From Candidatus Manganitrophus morganii (GTDB lineage Bacteria; Nitrospirota; Nitrospiria; SBBL01; Manganitrophaceae), in contig JAJHOH010000001.1 of NCBI GenBank assembly GCA_021651055.1, forward strand, positions 1,178,001 to 1,242,000: 64,000 nt of DNA, read 5' to 3'. A program made the position numbers and the translations under genes. The notes below the pieces were generated by a model. The model was not told the origin of the DNA and did no database searches. It worked only from the letters and a program-made list of their open reading frames with translations. Shown in pieces: positions 58,716 to 63,907 of the stretch. Numbering within the stretch: the first letter of the stretch is position 1; every line of letters begins with the position of its first letter.

Positions 58716-58917
58716 CTATCTCGTTTTAATTTCAGTCCATGGATAAGCGGGGAAAGCCCTTGCTGCAGCACTCTGAATACCAGGACAGAGTGACATTTTT
58801 TGTCAACTGATGGGTAATTTCGTCCTCTTTTCGGTCTTACTTTTTTCCGGGCATTCTTAAAATTTTTATAAGTCATTGATTTTGAATGGCATAGTTAATC
58901 TATCTTACAATACACTG

Positions 58918-58934
58918 TTGGTATAAAAATTGCT
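58918..58934 (+). promoter_or_regulatory. candidate sigma54 promoter of the reductase-kinase-regulator operon
   Basis: TTGG-TATAAAAATT-GCT with GG (58920-58921) and GC (58932-58933) separated by exactly 10 nt and followed by a T-run, as is usual after the -12 element. The start codon is about 65 nt downstream. Confidence 0.5.
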
Positions 58935-58998
58935 TTTTAGCCATCGACAGCGCTGTTCAGTTTTGTTCAACACATTCGAACTTTTCAGCAGGAGTCAG

Positions 58999-60213
58999 AT
59001 GAGCGATAAAGAATCCAGGAAGAATCCCTCTTTTTTTAAACTCACCGTCAATTCATTGGCGCTCTTTCTGGCCGCCATTCGAGACCTCTTTATTTTGTGG
59101 TTCCCTGGGATCATCGCTCGCCTCGTGATCCGCAAGGGGGATTATGCCTTCCTCATTCATCCAAGAGATCTCACCGATATTTCGAGAAAGTATCCCTTTT
59201 CGTCTTATTTTCCGCCCCACTGGGTCGAACGCGCCACACGGATGTTGTGGCCGATCATCGGCTCCCGCATTACCGGCCTGAAGTCGGCGGACGGGGAGGA
59301 TAAGACCGGATATATCGTCATCTGTCCGCTGACCCCTGAGCAGATGCACTACAATCAGCGCCTTGCTAAAAAAAGGATCCTTCAAACGGCCCGGTTGGCC
59401 GAGAAGCTCGGCTGCGAAGTCATCGGCCTTGGCGCGCTTTCCACCTCCATGAGCATGGGGGGCGAATACCTGACCGACAAAACCAATATCGGCGTCACCA
59501 CAGGACATGCCTATACCACTTCGGTCATCCTCCAGATGCTGGATGAAATCGCCCACGTCTTAAACATGGACTTGGAACAAAAAACCTTGGCGATCGTCGG
59601 CGCGGCCGGCTACATGGGCGTCCCCTGTACGCGGATCCTTTCCGAGAAGAGGAAAATAGGGAAATTACTCCTCGTCGATCGCCCGGCCAAGCGAGTCGCG
59701 TTGGATCTTCTGCAGCAAGAAATAAAATCGGTCACCATCGAAGTGGCCACCACCCTTCATAGTCTTCGCCAGGCGGACATCGTCATTGTCGTCACGAATT
59801 CGGTCGAGGTTCTCATCAAGCCGGAGCACTTGAAGCCCGGCGCCGTCGTACTCGACGACACGCAGCCCCGGAACACCTCCAAGGACCTCGTCTGGACAAG
59901 GCCCGACGTTCTCATCCTGGATGTGGTCGCTCAGGCTCCCGGCGTGGATACCCATTTCTCATTCGGTTTTCCACAGTCCGACGATGTTTTTACCTGCTGC
60001 GGCGAGGTGATGATTTTAGCCGCGCGCAATTGGAAAGGACATTTCGCCGTCGGACAATTCGATGACCAGCTCGTCCATCAAATGACCCGATGGAGTGAAG
60101 AGATGAAATTTAAAATTGCTCCCCTCAGAAGCTTCAATGAATTGGTCTCTCAAGAAAAGTTAGAGTATATCAAGACATTCCACCAGCCGATGGCCGAGCT
60201 CTTTCCCAAGTAG
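58999..60213 (+). CDS. acyl-ACP-reductase-like dehydrogenase (AAR/COG5322 type)
   Basis: 404 residues. Similar in layout to cyanobacterial acyl-ACP reductase: helical N-terminus, ARLAEKLGCEVIGLGALSTSMS...TTGHAYTTSVI (matching ALGGFSS and TTGNTHTAY of AAR), Rossmann loop GAAGYMG (201-207) and a Cys pair (333-334, in VFTCCGEVMIL) at the place of the catalytic Cys of AAR (MFACFAEA). AAR makes fatty aldehyde from acyl-ACP with NADPH. CAGGAG precedes the ATG at 58999. No aldehyde-deformylating oxygenase is in the window. It begins an operon with a sensor kinase (12 nt downstream) and an HD-GYP regulator. A related amino-acid/shikimate-type dehydrogenase role is possible. Confidence 0.65.
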   Translation: MSDKESRKNPSFFKLTVNSLALFLAAIRDLFILWFPGIIARLVIRKGDYAFLIHPRDLTDISRKYPFSSYFPPHWVERATRMLWPIIGSRITGLKSADGEDKTGYIVICPLTPEQMHYNQRLAKKRILQTARLAEKLGCEVIGLGALSTSMSMGGEYLTDKTNIGVTTGHAYTTSVILQMLDEIAHVLNMDLEQKTLAIVGAAGYMGVPCTRILSEKRKIGKLLLVDRPAKRVALDLLQQEIKSVTIEVATTLHSLRQADIVIVVTNSVEVLIKPEHLKPGAVVLDDTQPRNTSKDLVWTRPDVLILDVVAQAPGVDTHFSFGFPQSDDVFTCCGEVMILAARNWKGHFAVGQFDDQLVHQMTRWSEEMKFKIAPLRSFNELVSQEKLEYIKTFHQPMAELFPK

Positions 60214-60225
60214 AGCGGGAACAAG

Positions 60226-62427
60226 ATGGACATCCAAAATAGTCTTAGCCTTTTGGCGGGAATCACCAATCTGGCGCTGGGTTTTGTCGTTTGGTCCCGG
60301 GGCCGTAAGAACACCCTGAACGCGCTGTACAGTCTGGTGGCGCTGAGTGTCGCCTCCTGGTGTTTCTCGGTGATTCCCTTCCGTTCCGCCGTCGATCCAG
60401 TTGAATCGCTTCTCTGGTCTAAGATTTTATATGTCAGCCCGATTTCCATCGTGACCTCCTTCTTGTTCTTCAATTTCACCTTTCTTTCTCAAGAGCGCTC
60501 TTCTCGACTTGCCTATCTGCTCCCCCTTGCACCCGCATTGGGGATTCTGGCGCTCACCCTGCTGCCGGAGATGGTCATCCAGGCCGTGCTCCACACCGCC
60601 TCCGGCGAAAAGCAAATTGTTTTCGGGCCCGCTTATCCGATTTATTTCATCTTTATCATTGCCTATTTCTGCTGGTCCTTCATTATTCTGAGCAAGCAAT
60701 ATTTCAATTCCTCCGGAATCAGCCGGATGCAGATTCGCTACGTCTTCTTCGGCACATTCATCTCGGCCAATCTCGGAATGATCACCAACTTGATCCTCCC
60801 GACCCTCGGCATTTTCTCCCTCAACTGGCTCGGCCAGATCCTCACCATCATTATGAGCAGTTTTATCGCCTATGCCATCGTTCGCTACCGCCTGTTGGAC
60901 ATAAAGATCATCCTCAAACGCACCCTCGTTTATTCCATGCTCTTGATTATCACCTTTTCCGTTTATGTCTTTATGATTCTTTTTTCCCAGAATACCTTGG
61001 GGGATAAATCCGAGCCGACCTTCCGGATGTTCCTCTCCGCCCTTTTGGTGGCCATCGGTTTCGAACCGTTGAAGCGCTTCTTTCAGCGGGCGACCGATCG
61101 GATTTTTTTCAAAGGCGAGTACGACCAAAAACTCCTCCTCTCCCGGCTTTCCACCATGATGCGGAACACGATCAACCTCGAAAAGCTTTGTAAAGATCTC
61201 ACCTACACATTGATGACCAAGCTGACGGCGAAGAAGATGGCGATTCTCTTGGTGGAAGAGGAATCCCCTTTTGTCATTATCGGCGCTCAAGAAGGTTTTG
61301 ACGAAGCCACCCTTGCCCTTTCTTCCAATAATCCTCTGATCGAATATTTCAATATTCAAGGTATTCAGAAAGAACTTCTGGTGTATAATGAGATCGCAAA
61401 ACAGTCTGAAGAAGATCCCAGCGATCGTGATTTGACCGTGCTGATCCGGGAGATGGAGAAACTGGGCGTCACGCTGGTCGGCCCCATCTATATTAAGGGA
61501 CGCCTCATCGGTCTTTTCTTTCTCGACGACAAACGGTCGGAAGATATTTATACGGAAGATGAGTTCTCGATGCTGGAGATCATCTTTTCTCAGGCCGGCA
61601 CCTCCATCGAAAACGCGCGGCTTTATAAACGGGTCCAGGAACAGATGGAAGAGCTGAAAAAGAACCAGAGCGAACAGCTGATGCAGTCGGCCAAGCTTGC
61701 TTCCGTCGGAGAACTGGCGGTCAGCGTCGCCCATGAGATCAACAATCCGCTCACCGGCATTCTCGGCTTTACCAGTCTCCTCCTCTCCGAAATGCCCCCT
61801 GAAGATCCTCGGACGAAAGATCTGAAAGTCATCGAGAGCGAAGCGTTGCGATCCCGGCAGATTGTCCGTAATCTGCTCGATTTCTCCCGCTCTCACGGTT
61901 CCAAAAAAGAGCCGATCGACATCAACGGCCTCATCCGAAATACGCTCACCCTGATTCAGTATCAAGCAAAAACTTCCAACATCAATATCGTCGAGAAGTT
62001 TGCAAAGGATCTCCCCCCCGTCCAGGCCGACGCCGATCAGCTCAAGCAGGTCTTCATCAACCTAATTAAGAATGCGTTTGATGCGATGCCCAAAGGGGGC
62101 ATGCTCACGATCGAGACATCGACCCTCCCGGAGAAACCGCTCATGCTGAACAGGACTTCCCTCCATGAGAGTCCGTCCGAAGAGATGGTCATGATCCAAT
62201 TCAAAGATTCCGGTATGGGAATCCATCCGGATAATATTCAAAACATTTTCGATCCGTTCTTTACCACCAAAGGCCGCCAAATGGGTACCGGACTCGGCCT
62301 CTCCATCAGCTACAACATTATCGAGAAACACGGCGGAAGGCTGGAAGTCGAAAGCGAGCTCGGGAAGGGGAGCAATTTCATGATCAAGCTCCCTGCACTC
62401 TCGCATCAAGGGAGCCGAAATGTCTAA
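60226..62427 (+). CDS. seven-helix membrane sensor histidine kinase with GAF domain
   Basis: 733 residues. Residues ~1-255 hold seven or eight membrane segments (LAGITNLALGFVVWS, LYSLVALSVASWCFSVI and so on), like the N-terminal 7TM region of HisKA_7TM kinases. A GAF domain (~310-465), HisKA with His503 (SVAHEINNPLTGILGF) and HATPase (NLIKNAFDAMPKGG, DSGMGI, MGTGLGLSI) follow. The fold of its membrane part suits a hydrophobic ligand. It lies 12 nt after the reductase gene and overlaps the regulator gene by 8 nt. Confidence 0.9.
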   Translation: MDIQNSLSLLAGITNLALGFVVWSRGRKNTLNALYSLVALSVASWCFSVIPFRSAVDPVESLLWSKILYVSPISIVTSFLFFNFTFLSQERSSRLAYLLPLAPALGILALTLLPEMVIQAVLHTASGEKQIVFGPAYPIYFIFIIAYFCWSFIILSKQYFNSSGISRMQIRYVFFGTFISANLGMITNLILPTLGIFSLNWLGQILTIIMSSFIAYAIVRYRLLDIKIILKRTLVYSMLLIITFSVYVFMILFSQNTLGDKSEPTFRMFLSALLVAIGFEPLKRFFQRATDRIFFKGEYDQKLLLSRLSTMMRNTINLEKLCKDLTYTLMTKLTAKKMAILLVEEESPFVIIGAQEGFDEATLALSSNNPLIEYFNIQGIQKELLVYNEIAKQSEEDPSDRDLTVLIREMEKLGVTLVGPIYIKGRLIGLFFLDDKRSEDIYTEDEFSMLEIIFSQAGTSIENARLYKRVQEQMEELKKNQSEQLMQSAKLASVGELAVSVAHEINNPLTGILGFTSLLLSEMPPEDPRTKDLKVIESEALRSRQIVRNLLDFSRSHGSKKEPIDINGLIRNTLTLIQYQAKTSNINIVEKFAKDLPPVQADADQLKQVFINLIKNAFDAMPKGGMLTIETSTLPEKPLMLNRTSLHESPSEEMVMIQFKDSGMGIHPDNIQNIFDPFFTTKGRQMGTGLGLSISYNIIEKHGGRLEVESELGKGSNFMIKLPALSHQGSRNV

Positions 62428-63907
62428 AGAGCGGATCTTGGTGGTCGACGACGAGAGGACCATCCTGGAACTGGGCCAGCGTTTTCTCTCCTCTGAAGGA
62501 TTCGATGTTGAAACCGCCTCTCAAGGGATGCAGGCGATGAAGCTTTTGGAGCAAGGCCCTTATGAAATCCTTCTCACCGATATTCGAATGCCGGGGATGA
62601 GCGGCCTGGAGTTGATGAAGATGGCCCGATCGGTCCGGCCCGAAATCATCATGGTCGTGATCACCGGCCACGGAACGATTACCACCGCCATCGAATCGCT
62701 CAAAATGGGCGCCATGGGATTTATCCTCAAACCGTTCACGCGCCAGGAGCTCCTCTCCGCCATCCACAACGCCCTCGACAAGTACCGGTTGCGTCAGGAA
62801 AACGTCCGGATGAAATCGCTCATGCCGCTCTTTCAGGTCAACCAACAGCTGATGATGCAGACCGATCTCACCCATCTGATGCGCCTGATCGTCGATTTGG
62901 TGAAAACGGAACTCAAAGTGGATCGCGCCAGCATCATGCTTCTGAACGAAAAAACCGGCGAACTCGTCGTGAAAGCCACCACCGGCTTCGAGAATTTGGA
63001 TGAAAACAAGCTAAAAAAACATGTGGGAGAAGGAATCGCCGGATTGGCCGTGGAGAAGAAGCAGCCGATTTTGGTGCAAGGAGGGATCGAAGAAAACCCG
63101 GATCTGAAGGGTCTCCTCGACGATGAAAAGGTCGCGTCCGGACTGGCGGTTCCGATCATGATTCGAAAGAAGGTGATCGGCGTTCTGAATCTTTCTAAAT
63201 TCAACCGCGGCCAGCCGTTGGGGGAGAGCGATCTGGGGCTGATCTCGATCTTTTGCGGACAGGTAGCGGTGGCAATCGAAAATGCGCGCCTCTACCGCGA
63301 CATCCGGAACAGCTATCTTCGAACGCTGCAAGCCCTTGTCGCCGCCATCGAGATCAAAGACCAATTCAGCAAAGGCCATTCCTCCGGGGTGGCGCAATAC
63401 GCGGCGGTCATCGGGAAAGCGCTGCAACTCTCAAAGGGCCGGATGCAAGACTTGATCATTGCCGCGATCCTGCACGATATCGGAAAAATCGGCAGCAGCG
63501 ACGACATTCTAAAAAAGGGGAGCAAGCTCTCCGAGGACGAATTCGAATTAATGAAGTCGCATCCCGGCAATGCCGTCAAAATCCTGGAGACAATCGGCCT
63601 TTCCCGGGAAATTCTCTCCTCGATTCTCCACCATCACGAATGGTGGGACGGAAGCGGATATCCGAAGGGCCTCTCCAGAGAAGAGATTCCGCTCTTCTCT
63701 CGGATCATTGCCATCGCCGATACGATTGACGCCATGACGACTCCCCGCCCCTATCAACAAGCGGTCACGCTGGCCGAAGCGCGGGACGAAATCCGGCGGT
63801 TCAAGGGGAGCCAATTTGATCCGAATCTGGTAGACATTTTCCTGGGAATTGAAGAAAAAACCCTCCTCGATCCGGAATTCTCCGATCTCGATGCCCTTTC
63901 AGGATAA
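62420..63907 (+). CDS. response regulator with GAF and HD-GYP domains
   Basis: 495 residues. Receiver (Asp54, Lys104 region), a GAF domain (~150-300), and an HD-GYP domain: His352-Asp353 (HDIGKIG), then H-H (SILHHHEWWDGSGYPKGL) with GYP at 413-415. HD-GYP proteins hydrolyse c-di-GMP, so the output is likely a drop in this second messenger. It is the partner of the kinase just upstream, overlapping it by 8 nt (ATGTCTAA). Confidence 0.93.
   Translation: MSKERILVVDDERTILELGQRFLSSEGFDVETASQGMQAMKLLEQGPYEILLTDIRMPGMSGLELMKMARSVRPEIIMVVITGHGTITTAIESLKMGAMGFILKPFTRQELLSAIHNALDKYRLRQENVRMKSLMPLFQVNQQLMMQTDLTHLMRLIVDLVKTELKVDRASIMLLNEKTGELVVKATTGFENLDENKLKKHVGEGIAGLAVEKKQPILVQGGIEENPDLKGLLDDEKVASGLAVPIMIRKKVIGVLNLSKFNRGQPLGESDLGLISIFCGQVAVAIENARLYRDIRNSYLRTLQALVAAIEIKDQFSKGHSSGVAQYAAVIGKALQLSKGRMQDLIIAAILHDIGKIGSSDDILKKGSKLSEDEFELMKSHPGNAVKILETIGLSREILSSILHHHEWWDGSGYPKGLSREEIPLFSRIIAIADTIDAMTTPRPYQQAVTLAEARDEIRRFKGSQFDPNLVDIFLGIEEKTLLDPEFSDLDALSG

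Follow-up and report, generated by a model that had tools for sequence, protein, structure and literature searches.

Linkage of an AAR/PigE-like thioester reductase to a seven-transmembrane sensor kinase and an HD-GYP regulator: a candidate lipid-signalling operon in Candidatus Manganitrophus morganii

What could a predicted reductase of acyl thioesters, a sensor kinase in the membrane and a predicted cyclic-dinucleotide phosphodiesterase have to do with each other? The question is raised by a three-gene operon at positions 58,918 to 63,907 of a 64,000-nucleotide stretch of the genome of Candidatus Manganitrophus morganii, a manganese oxidiser of the phylum Nitrospirota (assembly GCA_021651055.1, contig JAJHOH010000001.1, positions 1,178,001 to 1,242,000 of the forward strand), below called the window, in which all gene coordinates are counted from the first letter. 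A preliminary description of this DNA had proposed that the enzyme makes a lipid-derived signal read by the kinase. We find that the linkage between the enzyme and the kinase is conserved and that related kinases adjoin diverse other acyl enzymes, both of which favour a lipid signal and its receptor; the reading of the operon as a module of lipid-signal synthase, receptor and output has, in our estimate from the sequences, an even chance of being right.

The operon comprises, on the plus strand, the genes of a thioester reductase of the superfamily of PigE and acyl-ACP (acyl carrier protein) reductase, AAR (404 aa, 58999..60213; domain, profile and alignment searches), a sensor histidine kinase with seven-transmembrane (7TM) and GAF domains (733 aa, 60226..62427; domain search) and a response regulator with receiver (REC), GAF and HD-GYP domains (495 aa, 62420..63907; domain search, intact motifs). 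The order, the 12-nt gap between the reductase and the kinase and the overlap between the kinase and the regulator, which is 8 nt, agree with those described before. The start of the reductase has to be moved: the TTG at 58930, given previously, belongs to the -12 element of the sigma54 promoter and hence cannot be the start, which is ATG 58999 with the ribosome-binding site AGGAG (58990..58994, plus strand) ahead of it.

The enzyme scores far below the cut-offs of both named relatives, 79.6 bits against 449.7 for AAR (TIGR04058) and 118 bits against 850 for PigE, the top-scoring one, while a profile of 12 relatives matches the structures of PigE (PDB 4ppm, 4e-34) and AAR (6jzq, 1e-32). The protein is no closer to the cyanobacterial AAR than to PigE. 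A structure model made by AlphaFold2 without an alignment reached a confidence (pLDDT) of only 36.6, too low to be of use. Cys333 (codon 59995..59997, plus strand) is invariant and aligns with the thioester-forming cysteine, Cys294 in AAR and Cys296 in PigE (PMC8341465); along with it Glu336, Thr167, Gly169, Gly201 and Gly204 are kept in every relative compared, and G201, G204 and G207 of the Rossmann glycine motif, which binds NAD(P), align with AAR. Since homology and the aligned cysteine are joined by the reported reduction of a thioester to an aldehyde by PigE (PMC8341465), thioester reduction by the predicted enzyme is well supported. Two features set it apart from AAR. Families f1, f6, f9 and f10 share a hydrophobic segment at the N-terminus (residues about 15-44), which falls outside the aligned parts of both the cyanobacterial AAR and PigE. 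The second Rossmann strand ends in Asp227, with Asp at this place in the same four families, unlike AAR; as an aspartate there favours NADH, this residue suggests NADH as the cofactor.

The AAR homology and the catalytic cysteine would also fit a hydrocarbon or fatty-alcohol pathway of the cyanobacterial type, the two-component genes being merely co-transcribed. However, aldehyde-deformylating oxygenase (ADO, PF11266), the partner of cyanobacterial AAR, was not found in any of 13 genomes that carry the reductase, although the search did detect it in the control, Synechococcus elongatus, and the linkage to the kinase is retained over several families. The AAR-ADO pathway is rejected for want of ADO in these genomes, and an explanation of this kind in general is highly improbable. 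A natural-product enzyme of the PigE type is ruled out as well: PigE belongs to prodigiosin clusters and carries a class III aminotransferase at its C-terminus, whereas the protein here consists of the reductase part only and both are absent. Searches of plasmids returned mostly PigE-like fusions with 21-27% identity.

The kinase consists of a 7TM sensor (residues 9-226; HisKA_7TM, PF16927, E-value 3.4e-15, 56.9 bits against a cut-off of 28.6), a GAF-like region (326-463; GAF_3, subthreshold), and HisKA (496-556) and HATPase_c (602-724) domains, both above the cut-off. In the regulator we observed Response_reg, GAF_2 and HD_5. The motifs of the two proteins (HEINNP, GTGLG, TDIRMP, HDIGK, HHEWWDGSGYP) are intact, and the regulator has all the hallmarks of an HD-GYP protein (HD, HDIGK, HHExxDGxGYP). 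Its GAF-HD-GYP part matches the solved HD-GYP protein 4mcw at 2.2e-41, and also a phosphodiesterase of 3'3'-cGAMP (cyclic GMP-AMP); because of this second match, cyclic di-GMP (c-di-GMP) is only the likely substrate. PrsK of the PEP-CTERM regulators PrsK/PrsR is likewise a 7TM-GAF histidine kinase, and sigma54 is involved in that system too, but the kinase scores only 94 bits on the PrsK profile (cut-off 300), its neighbour is an HD-GYP protein rather than an NtrC-type PrsR, and there is no PEP-CTERM link, so PrsK/PrsR is ruled out.

We surveyed genomes of the phylum Nitrospirota, and plasmids, using gene calls of a simple open-reading-frame caller; handles beginning with G, L, f and g below denote genomes, loci, families and a genus. 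A homologue of the reductase is present in 17 of 98 relatives, and a strong one in 22 of 396 genomes of the phylum. In 26 of the 28 genomes examined from both sets together, a 7TM kinase adjoins the reductase homologue. The exceptions are G270, where the kinase is absent, and G077, where the homologue is a PigE-like fusion belonging to a biosynthetic cluster. The latter locus (L039, a Nitrospira-family genome) encodes an aminotransferase-reductase fusion between two AMP-ligase-like genes and is a candidate natural-product cluster.

The full set of reductase, kinase and HD-GYP regulator was observed in 11 genomes (families f1, f9, f10), a count that includes G004, with the reductase and the kinase each split by frame, and G036 of f10, whose regulator was recovered intact by tblastn; in G001 the contig stops inside the kinase. 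The frame changes of G004, the GAC4 assembly, which may be assembly errors or signs of decay, lie at L022 (G004:C1:3134300-3135540). The reductase gene of f10 runs divergently from the kinase-regulator pair; hence, the three genes stay together even where their arrangement has changed. In f6 (12 genomes) the 7TM kinase is preceded by a reductase fused to a PilZ-like part (Pfam E-values 0.001-0.04 in three proteins, below the gathering threshold), and the reductase-kinase pair occurs also in G217 and G108, from other classes. Searches with the sensor region gave the reductase-linked kinase as the top match in all the reductase-bearing genomes tested. In genus g9 the kinase is present in 3 of 3 reductase-bearing genomes, and a match at 1e-12 in 0 of 20 others (Fisher test, about 6e-4). 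The gene-neighbourhood search suggested along with the preliminary description thus found the enzyme-kinase linkage conserved; the enzyme tree suggested there was also built and gives no decision on a single origin of the linked reductases.

Chance, or purely positional, linkage without functional coupling would be consistent with the flanking genes, which are syntenic within families as well. Yet the linkage outlasts both the change of flanks between families and the divergent gene order, the genes co-occur, and the reductase-linked sensors come from three separate clades, so we give this explanation very little credence.

The reductase is not the only enzyme found beside such kinases: other HisKA_7TM kinases of Nitrospirota adjoin other acyl enzymes, mostly PilZ fusions. 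These include PilZ fused to ketoacyl-ACP synthase III (KASIII, FabH-like; G004, G005, G020, G021, G067); PilZ-FabF-like with ACP-PilZ-4HBT, a thioesterase (G036); PilZ-HMG-CoA (hydroxymethylglutaryl-CoA) reductase (all four Manganitrophus-clade genomes surveyed); and a PilZ-BioF/serine-palmitoyltransferase (SPT)-like protein directly before the kinase (G028, L119:6245-7870). PilZ-acyl-CoA dehydrogenase, PilZ-Aldedh (aldehyde dehydrogenase) and a haem-oxygenase-like enzyme lie beside 7TM kinases in G002. Other neighbours are a LuxD-like acyltransferase with a methyltransferase (G039, G060, G065, G085; PilZ seen in G039), an unfused thioesterase (G000, G002, G004, G005), FadL with an O-methyltransferase (G002) and a methyltransferase (G108). 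At the G036 locus (L097:369-7219) PilZ-FabF, ACP-PilZ-thioesterase and the 7TM kinase are consecutive, as a small fatty-acid or polyketide line beside a receptor. Among the PilZ fusions, those of the KASIII, FabF, BioF-like, dehydrogenase and haem-oxygenase-like enzymes carry canonical motifs for c-di-GMP binding; the motifs are degenerate in those of AAR, HMG-CoA reductase and LuxD.

In the four Manganitrophus-clade genomes all PilZ proteins longer than 450 aa (8 of 8) adjoin kinases. Such an enzyme is nearby for 19 of the 30 7TM kinases of these genomes, compared to 3 of 38 other HisKA kinases of G000 (p 1e-6), and for G000 alone for 4 of 8 compared to the same 3 of 38 (p 0.012); this enrichment is indicative only, as the counts take in orthologous loci, hence not independent, and the neighbours of the control kinases were identified by BLAST searches using these same enzymes rather than by Pfam.

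The sensors themselves tend to follow the enzymes. In a tree of 60 7TM domains, the sensors cluster by the linked enzyme, with 16 changes versus a mean of 34.6 for shuffled labels (0 of 200 shuffles as low), a signal to which near-copies add. The KASIII-linked sensors of four families form one clade together with the haem-oxygenase-linked sensor. The AAR-linked sensors fall into three clades with support, namely f1+f9+f10 (with G034), f6, and f17+f38; thus, the pairing of reductase and sensor arose, or the sensor was replaced, on more than one occasion. At the HMG-CoA-reductase locus, which is syntenic, the sensors of G000 and G005 belong to a different clade than those of G002 and G004. Moreover, one locus with the same flanks (G000:C1 about 3351500-3361100, L127; G002, L105; G004, L107) differs in its enzyme and kinase set between sister genomes: KASIII in G004; the haem-oxygenase-like enzyme, dehydrogenase and aldehyde dehydrogenase in G002; and in G000 an 804-aa PilZ protein in which no catalytic domain was recognised, between two non-7TM kinases, one of them with a weak MASE8 match.

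These patterns bear on the main rival explanation, membrane-lipid homeostasis, in which the 7TM kinase reads the state of the membrane and the adjacent enzymes alter its lipids, forming an internal loop with no intercellular signal. The hydrophobic N-terminus of the reductase agrees with it, and the PilZ fusion suggests c-di-GMP control of the enzyme. FadL porins divergent from the reductase in several f6 genomes, a lipid-transport-domain gene ahead of the reductase in G217 and a desaturase close to another 7TM kinase fit it as well, although they fit lipid signalling too. On the other hand, unrelated chemistries are paired with one receptor class, some of them not obviously membrane-remodelling (BioF/SPT-like, HMG-CoA reductase, haem-oxygenase-like), the whole set is swapped at one locus between sister genomes, and the presence is patchy within a genus. 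We therefore hold homeostasis to be unlikely, though a serious competitor. Less probable still, and in our view distinctly doubtful, is that the reductase works mainly by direct contact with the kinase, to which, as its protein partner, it reports the status of acyl-ACP/CoA or NAD(P)H. The tight linkage and co-loss of the two genes and the precedent of the RpfF-RpfC contact (PMC13220807) are in line with such a role; the catalytic cysteine and the nucleotide-binding residues, however, are fully conserved across the family, and unrelated folds take the place of the partner enzyme at other 7TM kinases. Many acyl chemistries with one receptor class, joint exchange and patchiness are what is expected of signal/receptor pairs, and less of housekeeping.

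Upstream of the operon, the sigma54-like promoter seen in the preliminary description is confirmed as a conserved block in four species. No perfect match to the sigma54 consensus pattern was found genome-wide; the weaker -24/-12 element TGGTATAAAAATTGCT (58919..58934, plus strand) emerged by comparison of species, its GG and TTGCT parts being invariant across the four (shuffle p about 0.01), and rpoN is present in the genome. A palindrome of the form TGACA-N5-TGTCA, TGACATTTTTTGTCA (58791..58805, 0-1 mismatches in four Manganitrophus-clade species), lies 127 bp upstream of this element and is a candidate enhancer site for a sigma54 activator. The palindrome occurs 5 times in the genome, and 4 of the 5 copies have a strong sigma54-like site 86-130 bp downstream (expected about 0.01 each), 2 of these pairs preceding type IV pilin genes. 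The pairs outside the operon (L123, L125, L126; G000:C1 about 735 kb, 3656 kb and 3752 kb) stand before the two pilin genes and a 60-aa zinc-ribbon gene, which form a candidate regulon of the palindrome and sigma54. The arrangement is confined to the Manganitrophus clade and suggests a PilR-like activator common to the operon and the pili.

The signalling model we favour would then work as follows. Sigma54 and the activator would turn on the operon, and the activator would probably drive the type IV pilin genes too; because of this probable sharing, the operon likely serves surface or collective behaviour. The membrane-associated reductase would take an acyl group from acyl-ACP or acyl-CoA onto Cys333 and use NAD(P)H to reduce the thioester, yielding an aldehyde or a compound made from it. 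The kinase would detect this lipid product by its 7TM part, in the membrane or from outside, the latter allowing for action between cells, and would hand phosphate to the receiver of the regulator encoded next to it, a pairing we infer along with the direction of the response. The HD-GYP regulator would hydrolyse c-di-GMP or a related cyclic dinucleotide.

Several observations weigh against this model. Apart from the distance of the reductase to AAR and PigE given above, the PilZ part of the f6 fusions is missing the canonical c-di-GMP motif, the f6 genomes have no adjacent HD-GYP regulator, and the sigma54 site is missing in f6 and f10. Away from the reductase loci, about half of the 7TM kinases in the sample lack an enzyme of this sort alongside. 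Finally, G034 of f10 retains the kinase and the HD-GYP regulator at the same chromosomal place without the reductase, that is, the kinase-regulator pair can exist without it. The regulator at this locus (L099:4373-8318) is, in addition, broken into two frames.

Known systems offer several parallels. In Vibrio, CqsA/CqsS combines an acyl-CoA-using synthase with a multi-transmembrane receptor kinase, and the autoinducer synthase CqsA belongs to the same enzyme superfamily as the PilZ-BioF/SPT-like protein of G028; the CqsS sensor family, however, is unrelated, and the Cqs operon has no c-di-GMP module. RpfF/RpfC/RpfG of Xanthomonas, the diffusible signal factor (DSF) system, likewise encodes together an acyl-ACP enzyme, a membrane histidine kinase and an HD-GYP c-di-GMP phosphodiesterase, with a lipid-derived signal (PMC13220807), but RpfF has a crotonase fold and RpfC is a hybrid kinase with REC and histidine phosphotransfer (HPT) domains, while the operon here has a predicted thioester reductase, and its HisKA_7TM-GAF kinase lacks REC and HPT. 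PhcB/PhcS/PhcR/PhcQ of Ralstonia has the synthase, kinase and regulator in one operon and a fatty-acid-derived signal (PMC13220807); PhcB, in contrast, is a methyltransferase, and the Phc output is not an HD-GYP protein. By analogy, the operon likely follows the synthase/receptor/output plan of the Rpf and Phc systems in one transcript, with unrelated synthase and sensor families. The Rpf and Phc precedents, the palindrome shared with pilin genes, the hydrophobic N-terminal segment and the PilZ fusions are points beyond the preliminary description. In the open-access papers searched, we found no description of acyl-ACP reductase with HD-GYP or Nitrospira, of PilZ with 7TM kinases, of PilZ with autoinducer synthases or of a class like the one outlined here. 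Synthase-kinase-regulator operons are thus a known kind; what may be new here is the synthase and sensor families, possibly with a new class behind them.

We tentatively propose, at somewhat less than an even chance, that Nitrospirota, and perhaps other phyla, have a large class of modular lipid-signalling systems. In these, the signal synthases would be acyl-thioester enzymes, either PilZ-fused and c-di-GMP-gated or free, with eight or more chemistries among them; each would have its own 7TM-GAF receptor kinase and be exchanged together with it at hypervariable loci. The operon described here would be the member whose synthase is AAR-like and whose output is a cyclic dinucleotide. The ligands of HisKA_7TM kinases appear, to our knowledge, to be unknown. 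The stimulus of PrsK has been called obscure (PMC1569441). The enzyme genetically linked to each kinase offers a direct handle, its product being the candidate ligand, and deorphaning of the receptors would be testable pair by pair. If the proposal is true, the environmentally important nitrite and manganese oxidisers would possess a lipid-signal family made by synthases of several chemistries and tied to c-di-GMP and type IV pili.

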